DNA of 64,000 nt, taken from Polaromonas sp. (GTDB lineage: Bacteria; Pseudomonadota; Gammaproteobacteria; Burkholderiales; Burkholderiaceae_C). How positions within the stretch are numbered: the stretch's first letter is position 1; every line of letters begins with the position of its first letter. This document shows, one piece after another, positions 24,313 to 44,882 of this stretch. Location: the NCBI GenBank assembly GCA_030655515.1, contig JAURVI010000010.1:1-64000 (forward strand), in the 5' to 3' direction. The position numbers and the translations under genes are program-made. The notes below the pieces were generated by a model. That model was not told the origin of the DNA. It did no database searches and saw only the letters and a list, made by a program, of their open reading frames with translations.

Positions 24313-24499
24313 TGCGTGCGGCGGCGATTACACCGCGAGACACCACCATGTTTAAAAAAATACTGATTGCCAATCGCGGTGACCAGCCGCGAAGCGGCGC
24401 AGCAGCGAAGCTAAATTGCATGGCGCGCGAAGCGTGCGCAGGCGATTACACCGCGAGACACCACCATGTTTAAAAAAATACTGATTGCCAATCGCGGTG
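24313..24499. repeat. ~69-bp direct repeat (118-bp spacing) duplicating the mccA translation start
   Basis: gcgattacaccgcgagacaccaccatgtttaaaaaaatactgattgccaatcgcggtga occurs at 24322-24381 and again at 24440-24499; first ATG 24348, second ATG 24466. Confidence 0.9.
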
Positions 24500-26529
24500 A
24501 AATCGCCTGCCGCGTGGCAGCAACCGCCAGGCGCATGGCGATCCAGACCGTGGCGGTGTATTCGGACGCAGACGCCGGCGCCAAACATGTCAGCGTGTGC
24601 GACGAGGCGATTCACATCGGCGGCAGCGCGCCCAAAGACAGCTACCTGTGCTGGAAAAAAATCATCGCCGCGGCCCAGGCCACAGGTGCCGAGGCCATCC
24701 ATCCGGGCTACGGGTTTCTGAGCGAGAACGAAGAGTTCGCGCAAGCCTGCGCCGACGCCGGCCTGGTCTTCATCGGCCCGCCCGCGTCGGCCATCAAGGC
24801 CATGGGCCTGAAGGCAGAGTCCAAGCAACTGATGGAAAAAGCCGGCGTGCCGCTGGTGCCGGGCTACCACGGCAGCGACCAGGATCCGGCCATGCTCCAG
24901 CACGAGGCCAACCGCATCGGTTACCCGGTGCTGATCAAGGCCAGCGCGGGCGGCGGCGGCAAAGGCATGCGGGTGGTGGACCAGGCGGCGGACTTCGGGG
25001 CCGCGCTCGCCTCCTGCCAGCGCGAGGCGCGCAACAGTTTTGGCAGCGACGCGGTGCTGATTGAAAAATACGTGCAGCGCCCGCGCCACATCGAGATCCA
25101 GGTATTTGGCGACACCCACGGCAATTACGTCTATCTGTTTGAGCGCGATTGCTCGGTGCAGCGGCGTCATCAGAAGGTGCTGGAAGAAGCGCCGGCGCCC
25201 GGCATGACGCCCGAGATGCGCCAGCAGATGGGCCTGGCCGCTGTCGCGGCGGCGCGCGCCGTGCATTATGTGGGCGCAGGCACGGTGGAATTCATCGTCG
25301 AGCAGCCGATTAAAGAGCATTTTTCCGACGGGCCACCCTTAGGAAAAATAGCCCCCTCGGGGGGCAGCGCAGCACACGAAGTGGCAAGCGTGGGGGCCTT
25401 TTTCTTCATGGAGATGAACACCCGCCTGCAAGTGGAGCATCCGGTGACTGAAGCGATTACCGGGCTGGATTTGGTGGCGTGGCAACTGCGTGTCGCGTCG
25501 GGCGAGAAGCTGCCGCTGACGCAAGACCAATTGCGCATTCACGGCCACGCCATCGAGGCCCGTATTTGCGCCGAAAACCCGGATAACAACTTCCTGCCGG
25601 CCACCGGCACCCTGCATGTCTATGGCCTGCCGCCGTGCGTTTCTTTCGAGCAGGGCCCGGTGCGTGTGGATGCCGGCGTGCGCGAAGGCGATGTGATCTC
25701 GCCGTTTTACGACTCGATGATCGCCAAGCTGATCGTGCATGGCGATACCCGCGAACAGGCGCTGGCGCGCATGGATGAAGCGCTGGCGGAACTGCACATC
25801 GTGGGTCTGTCTACCAATGTGCAGTTTTTGCGCCATGTGGTGCAAAGCCGCTCGTTTGCCGGGGCCGATCTCGATACCGCGCTGATTCCGCGCGAGCAGG
25901 CGGTGCTGTTCCATCAGGAAAAGCTCGGCCTGCCCGCTGCTGCTGCTGCCGCCGTGGCGCTGACCTTGCTGGAGGAAAAAGCGCAGGAGACGGCCGACCC
26001 CTTCAGCAAAAGGGACGGCTGGCGCTCCCATGGCCTGACGCTGCGGCGCTTCGAGTTCGAGTTTCATGGCGAGTCTGTGCAGGCCGAGCTGACCTACCTG
26101 CATGACGGCGCGTTGCACCTGGCCGCCGGCGGCCAGGACGGCCCGCTGGTTTTTTCGCGCGGAGAGGCCGCGATGGACCTCCAGTTTGGCGGGCAGCGGT
26201 TCAGCGCAAACATCTACCGCCGTGGCGAGACGGTGCATGTGTTCGCCCGCCAGGGCGCGACCCAGATCACGGTGATTGACCGGCTGGCGCATGCCGGGGA
26301 AAGCCATGGCGAAGCCGGCCGCCTGACTGCGCCCATGCCCGGCAAGGTCGTGTCCTTCGCGGTAAAGGCCGGCGACAAGGTCAGCAAAGGCCAGGCGCTG
26401 GCAGTGATGGAGGCGATGAAGATGGAGCACACGATTGCCGCGCCGGCCGACGGTGTGGTGCAGGAGCTGCTGTACGCTCTCGGCGACCAGGTCGCCGAAG
26501 GGGCGGAACTCTTGACGATGACCGCCTGA
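24466..26529 (+). CDS. liuD: methylcrotonyl-CoA carboxylase alpha subunit (biotin carboxylase + BCCP), with in-frame repeat insertion
   Basis: MFKKILIANRGEIACRVAATARRM, HPGYGFLSENEEFAQ, FMEMNTRLQVEHPVTE, VMEAMKMEHTI biotinyl motif. Confidence 0.93.
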   Translation: MFKKILIANRGEIACRVAATARRMAIQTVAVYSDADAGAKHVSVCDEAIHIGGSAPKDSYLCWKKIIAAAQATGAEAIHPGYGFLSENEEFAQACADAGLVFIGPPASAIKAMGLKAESKQLMEKAGVPLVPGYHGSDQDPAMLQHEANRIGYPVLIKASAGGGGKGMRVVDQAADFGAALASCQREARNSFGSDAVLIEKYVQRPRHIEIQVFGDTHGNYVYLFERDCSVQRRHQKVLEEAPAPGMTPEMRQQMGLAAVAAARAVHYVGAGTVEFIVEQPIKEHFSDGPPLGKIAPSGGSAAHEVASVGAFFFMEMNTRLQVEHPVTEAITGLDLVAWQLRVASGEKLPLTQDQLRIHGHAIEARICAENPDNNFLPATGTLHVYGLPPCVSFEQGPVRVDAGVREGDVISPFYDSMIAKLIVHGDTREQALARMDEALAELHIVGLSTNVQFLRHVVQSRSFAGADLDTALIPREQAVLFHQEKLGLPAAAAAAVALTLLEEKAQETADPFSKRDGWRSHGLTLRRFEFEFHGESVQAELTYLHDGALHLAAGGQDGPLVFSRGEAAMDLQFGGQRFSANIYRRGETVHVFARQGATQITVIDRLAHAGESHGEAGRLTAPMPGKVVSFAVKAGDKVSKGQALAVMEAMKMEHTIAAPADGVVQELLYALGDQVAEGAELLTMTA
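25321..25398. repeat. GPP-type palindromic repeat inside mccA/liuD
   Basis: [26 protein letters not shown] in frame between EFIVEQPIKEH and FFFMEMNTRLQ. Confidence 0.85.
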
Positions 26530-29074: not shown

Positions 29075-29206
29075 CTCTGCGTGGCGTAGTCAGCGCATGT
29101 TGACAAGCCGCCGAAGGGTGTTTGCGTCGCTTGTCAGGAGCCGATAAGTTTCTCGCAGGCCCGACAGGCGCCTAGAATGTTTGACCTCTTCAGAAAAGCT
29201 CCATTC

Positions 29207-35302
<6,096 letters not shown>

Positions 35303-40062: not shown

Positions 40063-41448
40063 ATGCAGGTTGACGCATCGATTTTCAAAGCTTACGACAT
40101 CCGCGGCGTTGTGCCCGCGACCGTCAATGAATCCATGGCGGAGGCGCTTGGCCGGGCTTTCGGCAGCATGGCCCTGGCCGAAGGCGAACGCACGGTGGCG
40201 GTGGGCCGCGACGGGCGCCTCAGCGGGCCGGCGCTCAGCGCCGCACTGATTCGAGGGCTGGTGGCAAGCGGTGTGGACGTGATCGATGTCGGCATGGCCA
40301 CCACGCCCCTGCTGTATTTTGCGGCCAGCACCCTGGCCGGCTCCGGCATCCAGATCACCGGCAGCCACAACCCCCGGGACTACAACGGTTTCAAGATGGT
40401 GCTGGCCGGGCGCGCGATTTACGGCGAGGAAATTCAGGCGCTGAGAAGATCGATGGCGTCGGACAACCGGACGGCAACGGCCCGCCCCGGAATGGTCAGA
40501 AATATCAGTGTGCTCGCTCCTTACCGCGACCGCATTGTCTCGGACGTCAAGCTCAAGCGCCCCATGAAGGTGGTGATCGATTCCGGCAACGGCATTGCCG
40601 GCGCCTCGGCCCCCGGCATTTTTCGCGCGCTGGGCTGCGAGGTGATCGAGCTGTTCAGCGAGGTGGACGGCAGCTTTCCCAACCACCACCCGGATCCGAG
40701 CAAGCCGGAAAACCTCAAAGACCTGATTGCTGCGCTGCAGTCCAGCGATGCTGAACTGGGCCTGGCTTTTGACGGCGACGGCGACCGCCTGGGCATCGTG
40801 ACCCGCGAGGGCAACACCATTTACCCGGACCGCCAGATGATGCTGTTCGCGCGCGATGTGTTGTCGCGCGTGCCGGGCGGCACCATTGTTTTCGACGTCA
40901 AGTGCTCGCAGCGCCTGGCGCCCGAGATAGCATCCGCCGGCGGCGTGCCCCTGATGTACAAAACCGGGCACTCGCTGATCAAGGCGAAGATGAAAGAAGT
41001 CAATTCGCCATTGGGCGGCGAGATGAGTGGCCACATCTTCTTCAAGGAACGCTGGTTCGGTTTTGACGACGGCACTTATGCCGGCGCGCGCCTGCTGGAA
41101 ATTTTGAGCGCCGCGCCCGACGCCGGCGTACTGCTCAATGGCCTGCCGACCAGTTTTTCCACGCCCGAGTTGAACGTCCACTGTGCGGAGGGCGAGCCCC
41201 ACGCGCTGGCGGACCAACTGGTCCTGCGCGCCGACTTCGCCGCGCCGGCTGTCGTGAATACGATTGACGGATTGCGGGTGGACTGGCCCGATGGTTTTGG
41301 CCTGATACGCGCGTCCAACACCACGCCGGTGCTGGTGCTGCGTTTTGAAGGGCACACGCAAGAGGCGCTGGAGCGCATCGAGGCTGCCATGCTGGCGCTG
41401 CTGCGCAGCGTCAAGCCCGATGCGAGTTTTGCGGCGGCTGCGCATTGA
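40063..41448 (+). CDS. phosphomannomutase/phosphoglucomutase
   Basis: FKAYDIRGVVP, QITGSHNPRDYNGFKMV, FDGDGDRLGIVT, GEMSGHIFFKERWFGFDDGTYAG. Confidence 0.93.
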   Translation: MQVDASIFKAYDIRGVVPATVNESMAEALGRAFGSMALAEGERTVAVGRDGRLSGPALSAALIRGLVASGVDVIDVGMATTPLLYFAASTLAGSGIQITGSHNPRDYNGFKMVLAGRAIYGEEIQALRRSMASDNRTATARPGMVRNISVLAPYRDRIVSDVKLKRPMKVVIDSGNGIAGASAPGIFRALGCEVIELFSEVDGSFPNHHPDPSKPENLKDLIAALQSSDAELGLAFDGDGDRLGIVTREGNTIYPDRQMMLFARDVLSRVPGGTIVFDVKCSQRLAPEIASAGGVPLMYKTGHSLIKAKMKEVNSPLGGEMSGHIFFKERWFGFDDGTYAGARLLEILSAAPDAGVLLNGLPTSFSTPELNVHCAEGEPHALADQLVLRADFAAPAVVNTIDGLRVDWPDGFGLIRASNTTPVLVLRFEGHTQEALERIEAAMLALLRSVKPDASFAAAAH

Positions 41449-41562
41449 TCAAGGAAGCCGCCCCCCCGGGCCTGACCCGGAGTCCATGCTTCGAATTCCT
41501 GGGCGCGCAGCCCAGGATGGCGGGTCCAGCCCGCCATGACAGACCATGAGTGAGCAAGTGCG

Positions 41563-41806
41563 CCGCGCAGGGCCGCCCCAAGCAAGCACAGCCCCCTCGG
41601 GGGGCAGCGCATTACACGAAGTGAAAAGCGTGGGGGCCGCAGCACCCCGCGCAGGGCCGCCCCAAGCAAGCACGGCCCCCTCGGGGGGCAGCGTATTACA
41701 CGAAGTGAAAAGCGTGGGGGCCGCAGCACCCCGCGCAGGGCCGCCCCAAGCAAGCACGGCCCCCTCGGGGGGCAGCGCATTACACGAAGTGAAAAGCGTG
41801 GGGGCC
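41563..41806. repeat. three tandem GPP-type repeats (84-bp period) at the 5' end of waaC
   Basis: [28 protein letters not shown] x3 in frame; 84 bp = 28 codons per unit. Confidence 0.92.
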
Positions 41807-42847
41807 AGAATCCTTCTGGTCAAGCTGTCATCTTTGGGTGACGTGGTGCATACGCTGCCCGTGGTCCAGGACATCCTGACTGCGCGACCGGGTGCGCAGA
41901 TCGACTGGGCCGTGGAGAAGTCCTTCGCGCCTTTGCTGTCGCTGCTGCTGGGGGCCGGCTTGCACCGCGTCATTCCTTGCGAACTACGCCGCTGGCGGAA
42001 ATCGTTGCTGGCGGCCAACACGCGGGCCGAGTGGCGCGTCTTCAAGTCCCGGTTGCAGACCGAACACTACGACGCGGTCATTGACCTGCAGGGCTTGACC
42101 AAGTCGGCCCTGGTGGCCCGGCTGGCCCGGCTCAGCGCGACCGGTCAACGCTATGCGCTGGCGAATCGGACCGAAGGTTCGGGCTACGAAGCGCCGACGC
42201 GCTGGGTGGCTGATGTGGCCATTGCCATCGAGCCGCACATCCACGCGGTGCAGCGTTCGCGCGCGCTGTGCGCCCGCGCGCTGGGTTATGCCTTGCCGCC
42301 CGCGCTGGACTATGGACTAAAAAAGGCCCTGGCCCAGATCACACGGGCGCAGGCAGCGCCTGAAACAATAGCGTTCGTCCATGGCGCTTCGCGCGCTGAC
42401 AAGCAGTGGCCGCTGGCAAGCTGGATCGCCCTGGGTCGGCAGCTCAATACGCTGGGCTACCGGATTGCGCTGCCGCACGGCAGTGCCGATGAATTGGCGG
42501 CCAGCCAGGTGATTGCCGATGCCTTGAACGGCGAAGGCAAGGGCAGCGAGCCTCGTGCCCTGATTTGGCCACGCCTGCCACTGGACGCGCTGACGCCGCA
42601 GATGGCGCAGTGCGCGGGAGTGATCGGCGTGGACAGCGGCCTGAGCCACATCGCCGTGGCGCTGGACTTGCCGCATGTGCAGATATACAACTTCGACACG
42701 GCCTGGCGCACCGGGCCGGGGCCCGCCGGTTCAGCCGGGGTTCGCCAGATCAGTGTGCATGCCCGGCCGACACCGACCGTTCAGGCGGTCTGGGACGCAT
42801 GGCTCGGCTGCCAGCCGACTGGCGCAGAACTGCGGGATGCCGTTTGA
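41798..42847 (+). CDS. waaC: lipopolysaccharide heptosyltransferase I (start uncertain: GTG 41798 or ATG 41546)
   Basis: RILLVKLSSLGDVVHTLPVVQDI, DLQGLTKSALVARL, FVHGASRADKQWPLASW, GVDSGLSHIAVALDLP. Confidence 0.88.
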   Translation: MGARILLVKLSSLGDVVHTLPVVQDILTARPGAQIDWAVEKSFAPLLSLLLGAGLHRVIPCELRRWRKSLLAANTRAEWRVFKSRLQTEHYDAVIDLQGLTKSALVARLARLSATGQRYALANRTEGSGYEAPTRWVADVAIAIEPHIHAVQRSRALCARALGYALPPALDYGLKKALAQITRAQAAPETIAFVHGASRADKQWPLASWIALGRQLNTLGYRIALPHGSADELAASQVIADALNGEGKGSEPRALIWPRLPLDALTPQMAQCAGVIGVDSGLSHIAVALDLPHVQIYNFDTAWRTGPGPAGSAGVRQISVHARPTPTVQAVWDAWLGCQPTGAELRDAV

Positions 42848-44190
42848 TGGCGACCATGATCCGCAAGCTCTATTCGCTGCTGATGTGGGCGGCCCAGCCT
42901 TTCCTGCGGCGCAAGCTGATCCGGCGCGGCCAGGTTGAACCGGGTTACCTTGAGGCGGTCGATGAGCGTTTCGGGTTTTACACGCAGGCGCCAGAGGTCC
43001 GCTCCGAGCTGGTGTGGGTACACGCGGTGTCGCTGGGCGAAACCCGCACCGCCGGCATTTTGCTCAAGGCCTTGCGCGAACGGTTGCCGGCGCTGCGGAT
43101 ATTGCTGACGCATGGCACGGCGACCGGGCGGGTCGAAGGCGTGAGTCTGCTGCGCGAAGGGGATGTGCAGGTCTGGCAGCCCTGGGACAGCGAAGCCGCC
43201 GTCGCCCGTTTCTTCGCGCACTTCCAGCCGCGCCTGGGCATCCTGCTGGAAACCGAGGTCTGGCCCAACAGCGTGGCTTGCGCGCAGGCGCGCGGTGTGC
43301 CGCTGGCACTGGTCAACGCGCGCCTCTCGGACAAGTCGCTGCAGCAGGCGCTGCGCATGGCGCCACTGTCGCGGCCCGCGTATGCGGCGCTGGCGGCGGT
43401 GTACGCGCAGACGCAGGACGACGCGCGGCGCTTGCGTTCGCTGGGGGCGACAGTGCAGCACGTATTCGGTAACCTGAAGTTTGATGCCGCGCCCGATGCG
43501 GCGCAGTACGCCCAGGGCAAACAGTGGCGGCTGGCGCTGGCCCGCCCTGTTTTGATGCTGGCCAGTTCGCGGGAAGGTGAGGAAGAAAGCTTTCTTGAAA
43601 GAATAAGTGCTCCGGCCCTTTCTGTGCAGGCGCAAGACGCTACTAAAACAGTAGCGGATGCTGATTCGGCAGAAACATCGGTTGTCGCTGTTTTCCAGAT
43701 ACTGATTGTGCCGCGTCATCCGCAGCGCTTTGACGAGGTGTGCGCGCTGGTCGAAAAGCGCGGCTTGTCGGTGTCGCGCCGCTCCAACTGGAATGGCGGG
43801 CCGCCGCTGGCGGCCGATGTCTGGCTCGGCGACTCGCTGGGCGAGATGGCGCTGTATTACGCGATGAGTGACGTGGCGCTGCTCGGCGGCAGCTTTGCGC
43901 CGCTGGGCGGGCAGAACCTGATTGAAGCGGCTGCCTGCGGCTGCCCTGTGATGATGGGGCCGCACACATTCAACTTTGCCGAAGTGGCTGAGCTGGCCGA
44001 AGCCGCCGGCGCTGCCCGGCGCGCACTGGACATGGCCGACGCGGTGCGCAACGCCAAAGCATTGTTGACCCGGCCGACTGCGCAGCACGCCGCCGCCGCG
44101 GCCAGCCTGCAATTTGCGGCGCAGCATCGGGGCGCAACCGCGAACACGGCCCAGGCCCTGGCCTCGCTTCTGAATGGCGACGGGGATTGA
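42847..44190 (+). CDS. waaA: 3-deoxy-D-manno-octulosonic acid (KDO) transferase
   Basis: WVHAVSLGETRTAGILLKAL, LLETEVWPNSVACAQARGVPLALVNARLSDKS, LLGGSFAPLGGQNLIEAAACGCPVMMGPHTFNF; ATGA overlap with waaC. Confidence 0.93.
   Translation: MATMIRKLYSLLMWAAQPFLRRKLIRRGQVEPGYLEAVDERFGFYTQAPEVRSELVWVHAVSLGETRTAGILLKALRERLPALRILLTHGTATGRVEGVSLLREGDVQVWQPWDSEAAVARFFAHFQPRLGILLETEVWPNSVACAQARGVPLALVNARLSDKSLQQALRMAPLSRPAYAALAAVYAQTQDDARRLRSLGATVQHVFGNLKFDAAPDAAQYAQGKQWRLALARPVLMLASSREGEEESFLERISAPALSVQAQDATKTVADADSAETSVVAVFQILIVPRHPQRFDEVCALVEKRGLSVSRRSNWNGGPPLAADVWLGDSLGEMALYYAMSDVALLGGSFAPLGGQNLIEAAACGCPVMMGPHTFNFAEVAELAEAAGAARRALDMADAVRNAKALLTRPTAQHAAAAASLQFAAQHRGATANTAQALASLLNGDGD
43632..43655. 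repeat. hairpin repeat inside waaA
   Basis: gcaagacgctactaaaacagtagc; in frame (QDATKTVA) between FLE and ILIVPRHPQRF. Confidence 0.75.
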
Positions 44191-44259: not shown

Positions 44260-44481
44260 ATGTCTGAATCCACCATAACCATCAAAGGCCAGACCACCGT
44301 GCCTCAGCCCATCAGGGATGCCTTGCACACCCAGCCAGGAACCAGGTTGCAATGGACGCTCATGCCTGACGGCACCATCATCGTGCGTGCCAAAACCAAG
44401 TCCATACTTGACCTTGCAGGAATGCTCAAAGCGCCCACGGGTAAAAAGGTGCGAATTGAAGACATGAATGCCTGGCGCTGA
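44260..44481 (+). CDS. AbrB/VapB-like antitoxin
   Basis: STITIKGQTTVPQPIRDALHTQPGTRLQWTLMPDGTIIVRAK; overlaps the toxin start. Confidence 0.82.
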   Translation: MSESTITIKGQTTVPQPIRDALHTQPGTRLQWTLMPDGTIIVRAKTKSILDLAGMLKAPTGKKVRIEDMNAWR

Positions 44482-44882
44482 TGGCTTCTCTTGATACCAA
44501 CGTGCTGGTCCGCTATCTTGTTCAAGACGATGATCGGCAGCTCGGATTGGCAAAAAAACTCATACGCGCAGTGCTGCGTGCGGGTGAGACGCTGTATATC
44601 CCTATCACTGTGATGCTGGAGCTGGAGTGGGTACTGCGCTCAAATTTCGGCTTCGACAAAGACCAGATCACCAACGCCATTTCCAGCCTTCTGGCATCGG
44701 CAGAACTGTCTTTTGAATCTGAAGCTGCCGCAGAGGTTGCTCTTGCTTTGTACCAACGCAACAGAGCCGATTTTGCAGACTGTGTTCACGTCGCACTGGC
44801 ACACGCCGCTGGTGAACGCCCGCTGTGGACATTTGACCGCGCCGCTTCAAAACTCGACGGCGCCAAAATGCTGGCGGCGTGA
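44481..44882 (+). CDS. VapC-like PIN-domain toxin
   Basis: SLDTNVLVRYLVQDD, ITVMLELEWVLRS, ADFADCVHVALA, LWTFDRAASKL. Confidence 0.85.
   Translation: MASLDTNVLVRYLVQDDDRQLGLAKKLIRAVLRAGETLYIPITVMLELEWVLRSNFGFDKDQITNAISSLLASAELSFESEAAAEVALALYQRNRADFADCVHVALAHAAGERPLWTFDRAASKLDGAKMLAA

Follow-up and report, generated by a model that had tools for sequence, protein, structure and literature searches.

A BRE-like tandem repeat inserted in frame probably gives WaaC a repeat-encoded N-terminal tail in a Polaromonas genome

The 64,000-nt stretch of DNA analysed here (the window) comes from a Polaromonas genome in draft form that was probably assembled from a metagenome (52 contigs, 84.8% complete, 5.2% contamination), and carries a pgm–waaC–waaA gene series in which a short tandem repeat precedes the conserved part of waaC (Table 1). 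The WaaC family model, NCBIfam heptsyl_trn_I (heptosyltransferase I), begins at residue 88 of a 433-aa ORF that runs without a stop across all repeat units. On the upstream side, this ORF is bounded by an in-frame TGA (41537–41539) located within a different, imperfect inverted repeat. Sequences similar to the latter are found upstream of waaC in three other loci (L017, L018, and L097), with a single partial further copy among the sampled loci of the source genome. Given the draft state and contamination of the assembly, the array could be viewed as a neutral intergenic repeat in front of a pseudogenized or wrongly assembled waaC. However, the 346-aa core is intact with a strong family score, and the same repeat-waaC arrangement occurs in Polaromonas sp. 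OV174 (L023), whose record is not marked as metagenome-assembled, and in many other genomes, which makes this reading highly improbable. The exact number of units at waaC could still be an assembly result, since the genome is a draft and probably metagenome-assembled.

Table 1 Features of the pgm–waaC–waaA locus and in-gene repeat copies in the window
Feature	Coordinates	Strand	Evidence
BRE-like unit in frame within biotin carboxylase alpha-subunit gene (24466–26529), ATP-grasp region	25332..25396	+	
Two tandem BRE-like units in frame within 2041-aa double UvrA gene (29177–35302)	29674..29819	+	
pgm/algC-like phosphomannomutase/phosphoglucomutase gene, upstream neighbour of waaC	40063..41448	+	NCBIfam PgmG best match 3e-147, under curated cut-off
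Different imperfect inverted repeat between pgm and array, CCTGACCCGGAGTCC...GGGTCCAGCCCGCCATGACA	41464..41540	+	Sequence reading
waaC ORF, N-terminal 87 residues repeat-encoded, conserved core from 41807	41546..42847	+	TIGR02193 6e-83 from residue 88; Pfam PF01075
ATG, furthest-upstream in-frame start of waaC, putatively the best candidate	41546..41548	+	Anti-SD duplex +0.4 kcal/mol
GTG at left edge of array, in frame, SD-like GAGUGAG upstream, second candidate start	41558..41560	+	SD duplex -4.8 kcal/mol
BRE-like unit 1 (profile core 41572–41636)	41563..41646	+	TRF and profile
BRE-like unit 2 (profile core 41656–41720)	41647..41730	+	TRF and profile
BRE-like unit 3 (profile core 41740–41804), ends GCGTGGGGGCC flush with waaC core	41731..41806	+	TRF and profile
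GTG within unit 3, alternative start (MGARILLVK)	41798..41800	+	SD duplex -1.9 kcal/mol
waaA/kdtA-like gene, start overlapping waaC stop	42847..44190	+	NCBIfam Kdo transferase best match 9e-137, under curated cut-off

Tandem Repeats Finder (TRF) delimited the array at 41563–41806, as 2.9 copies of an 84-bp (28-codon) unit with 98% matches. Unit 1 is identical to unit 2 at 82/84 positions and unit 2 to unit 3 at 75/76, in line with the three near-identical 84-bp units described in a first-pass annotation of this DNA; the GC content of units 1 and 2 is 71.4%. The same annotation stated that the heptosyltransferase core has no native start beside it, and indeed no ATG, GTG, or TTG occurs in the window at position -3, directly before RILLVKLSSLGD. 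A start at this position is present in 67 of the 86 distinct waaC loci of relatives. Usable waaC starts in the window thus lie only in or just before the repeat, as had been proposed. The two in-frame options named at the time, GTG 41798 and ATG 41546, are both in frame, yet they are accompanied by six more in-frame GTGs (41558, 41621, 41630, 41705, 41714, and 41789), the last of which would give a product beginning MKSVGARILL. Initiation at the ATG would add a repeat-encoded N-terminus as suggested, with a length of 87 residues instead of about 84. This ATG is without a Shine-Dalgarno (SD) match and has no counterpart in relatives. We also considered a native start at MSEQVR with an insertion after codon 5–6, and rejected it because no counterpart was found in relatives.

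The unit at waaC is not specific to this gene. BLAST of the region against its own genome returned 51 places and a single-unit query 66, and a profile search of sampled stretches around repeats identified 88 units in 54 arrays, with 1–6 units per array and both full and partial copies. Because the unit belongs to a dispersed family, the array upstream of waaC does not reflect chance. Tandem periods are mostly 84 bp (30 cases) and 81 bp (9 cases). Of 87 Polaromonas genomes, 84 contain the repeat; across the wider bacterial family, it was present in 109 of the 201 genomes sampled, covering 81 of 141 sampled genera. No Rfam family matches the repeat. Its properties instead agree with those of the beta-proteobacterial repeat element (BRE; Hot et al. 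2011, PMC3110155), to which that paper assigns no function. As for BRE, the repeat is a dispersed element of ~75–91 bp in full or partial copies, forms tandem arrays of variable number with few nucleotides between units, falls within a GC range of 64–79%, and is abundant in the genome of Polaromonas sp. JS666, with 42 matches (E ≤ 0.01) against the 29 reported in PMC3110155. We therefore call the units BRE-like, a fit based on unit length, GC content, tandem organization, host range, and abundance in JS666 instead of an alignment with the Bordetella BRE. A REP/REPIN family with its RAYT is not supported, since no repeat-flanked Y1 (REP-associated) transposase was found: the one Y1_Tnp gene of the source genome (C23:58832-59158) lies ~12 kb from the nearest repeat element and not next to a copy.

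The repeat also occurs inside genes, where it favors one reading frame. Our survey covered 149 arrays from five genomes and asked whether coding frames run straight through them, with these frames assigned via a simple codon-usage score and not a gene finder. By this measure, 29 of the arrays are in-gene: 21, 1, and 1 are read in sense frames +0, +1, and +2, respectively, and the remaining 6 share a single antisense frame. As >90% of units lack stops in each of four frames, stops alone do not explain the preference for frame +0. Insertion in frame within unrelated protein genes, with one preferred frame (21/29), is the behavior of the Rickettsia palindromic element (RPE) kind, and the window itself provides two examples besides waaC (Table 1). 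For the double-length UvrA gene, another genome (G484) carries a unit at apparently the same place (L232). The source genome holds additional genes joined in frame to an element at their 5' end (L158, L161, L172, L175, L179, and L195), which from a reading of their sequences could be named ispF-, glyoxalase-, uvrA-, yejE-, gluQ-, and miaA-like. The idea of a portable ribosome-binding site within the element was rejected, as SD energies are alike in start-fused and in-gene copies and mostly weak. Similarly, we set aside the idea that frame +0 fusions are genes started by the element; many were first scored as forced GTG starts, but ybgC and waaC of relatives keep an in-frame upstream start.

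Relatives indicate that the fusion at waaC is recurrent. In a pattern search, 7 of the 87 Polaromonas genomes showed the end of the repeat joined to the waaC core; outside the genus, no such fusion turned up among 401 sampled family genomes, apart from the window. Reading all fetched loci raised the count to 12 rows of the WaaC tree, including two loci labelled merely as beta proteobacteria (L066 and L074). On this tree, the fusion label of the 12 loci requires at least seven changes, either gains or losses, which excludes a single inherited event without losses, although some members share their insertion. As the first-pass annotation had anticipated, unit number can change without loss of frame, with one, two, or three units at the waaC junction in different relatives.

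These loci also bear on where translation starts. In many Comamonadaceae, the waaC start is a codon overlapping the pgm stop (caTTGA), and four element-free loci without a start at -3 (L064, L073, L079, and L086) begin waaC at this pgm-overlapping TTG, with a short N-terminal extension. We compared waaC loci lacking a -3 start and having a gap of at least 45 nt with loci that have a -3 start. The codon overlapping the pgm stop shared the waaC phase, uninterrupted by a stop, in 9/12 vs. 1/38 loci (Fisher p = 8e-7), counts and a p-value that overstate the number of independent events because several fused loci share ancestry. Direct reading of the locus added a tenth in-phase case (L150). At fused loci, the overlapping codon is mostly TTG, with CTG in Polaromonas sp. 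OV174 and TTA in L118. In two loci (L050 and L150), the repeat sits in another frame while the upstream pgm-overlapping TTG is in phase with waaC, so that the GTG of the repeat cannot be the waaC start there. Two loci depart from this phase rule. One is the window, where the TTG overlapping the pgm stop falls out of phase and runs into a stop, so the rule of relatives does not apply to it directly. The other (L014) carries an in-frame ATG immediately following the stop.

A parallel pattern was observed at ybgC. The native TTG of this gene, which overlaps the upstream gene (CTTGGCTGA), is in frame with ybgC in all 8 element-bearing loci, through inserts of widely differing length, as it is in 15/15 element-free loci. 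One further arrangement, L331 (G015), has an element in the opposite orientation upstream of ybgC, which is still in frame with its native TTG.

Taken together, these patterns show in-frame insertion of a BRE-like element, its recurrence, and conservation of phase in relatives, and they make it probable that translation begins upstream of the repeat, which would then encode an N-terminal tail of WaaC. Copies of the family can reside within genes because their favored frame contains no stops and tandem units mostly span a multiple of three. On this reading, copies at waaC and ybgC have repeatedly entered in frame after a native start, typically one that overlaps the stop of the preceding gene, and ahead of the conserved enzyme core. 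Translation would then most likely begin upstream of the array and read through it; in this organism, by analogy with relatives, the candidate start would be ATG 41546 or else GTG 41558. The conservation of upstream phase through the repeats favors initiation upstream, as phase would be needless if the GTG of the repeat were the start. The main competing explanation places the start within the repeat itself, at GTG 41798 (or 41789) of the last unit, in which case WaaC gains an extra Gly-Ala and the remaining array is leader RNA. This GTG, together with a spacing of 9 or 12 nt before the core, is the only in-frame feature common to nearly all fused loci, and its use would yield a product matching normal WaaC in length. 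The glyoxalase-like gene (L161) has no other in-frame start that we could see upstream of its array, and in a degraded element remnant upstream of ybgC in G037 (L313) the position matching this GTG now reads ATG, in frame. Yet upstream phase is conserved where a repeat-borne start does not need it, L050 and L150 carry the GTG in another frame, the SD pairing of the GTG in the window is weak, and the codon is paired in the predicted fold, though RNA folds of the repeat units were no better than shuffles (z near 0). We consequently regard a start within the repeat as rather unlikely. The same evidence, with upstream phase kept in most fused waaC and ybgC loci, runs against the first-pass proposal that the repeat controls initiation, whose observations were otherwise confirmed and whose interpretation is only partly supported. 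On balance, the array most likely extends WaaC and does not provide its start.

With initiation upstream, WaaC would gain a tail of roughly 85 repeat-encoded residues that is probably disordered: an AlphaFold model built on an alignment of 24 sequences gave pLDDT < 50 and no secondary structure for residues 1–80, followed by a good core whose first strand starts at residue 88. Each unit gained or lost would change the tail by 28 residues with the frame kept. A comparison of codon positions between in-gene and intergenic copies revealed no bias and no sign of constraint on the repeat peptide itself. This lack of bias suggests that the tail is tolerated, more likely than selected for any usefulness. 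Alternatively, the array could act as a contingency or dosage device, with unit number tuning WaaC level or tail length and hence varying the LPS core. The in-frame 84-bp units and their one to three copies in relatives are compatible with such a device, as is the variable number of BRE loci described for Bordetella (PMC3110155). However, unit changes never break the frame and thus offer no on/off switch, housekeeping genes such as biotin carboxylase and uvrA hold the same element, and copy number from a draft genome is uncertain, so that we consider this very improbable. Also unlikely is that the pgm–waaC and ybgC upstream junctions are preferred landing sites at which the repeat is useful, the tail or a hairpin separating or tuning the coupling of overlapping genes; if true, tandem unit number would set the amount or behavior of WaaC.

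There are precedents for small palindromic repeats fused in frame to genes. RPEs (Ogata et al. 2000, reviewed in PMC10969869) are palindromic repeats found in frame in unrelated genes and read within the frame of the gene product, as here. They differ in being alphaproteobacterial, with a unit of ~150 bp, whereas the Polaromonas repeat is tandem and has many copies at gene 5' ends by overlapping starts. An assignment to RPE proper was dismissed on the betaproteobacterial host, not on RPE sequence. Likewise, ERIC, YAPL/RU-2, and Correia elements are small and non-autonomous, and their open frames have been joined to host ORFs (Delihas 2007, PMC2229807); they differ as MITEs, which carry terminal inverted repeats and duplicate their target. 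The closest match remains BRE, likewise an 84-bp GC-rich unit, single or tandem and dispersed, for which intergenic copies and copies overlapping gene ends and inside genes had already been noted (PMC3110155); the single-frame rule within genes and the N-terminal waaC and ybgC fusions found here are not described in the available part of that paper. What appears new from these sequence comparisons is that a BRE-like element does likewise in Polaromonas and relatives, as tandem 28-codon units and with repeated insertion just after overlapping native starts. An overlooked beta-proteobacterial repeat is thus indicated as a protein-coding insert with one favored frame in many genes, comparable to the Rickettsia case. 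Automatic start calls for waaC, ybgC, and other repeat-fused genes are accordingly ambiguous, and long tails made by the repeat may set orthologues apart. Comparing frame phase offers a simple way to weigh internal vs. upstream starts with nothing but sequence. Near waaA, we also noted an ORF (44481–44882) beginning MASLDTNVLVRYLVQDDDRQL that looks like a PIN-domain (VapC-type) protein.
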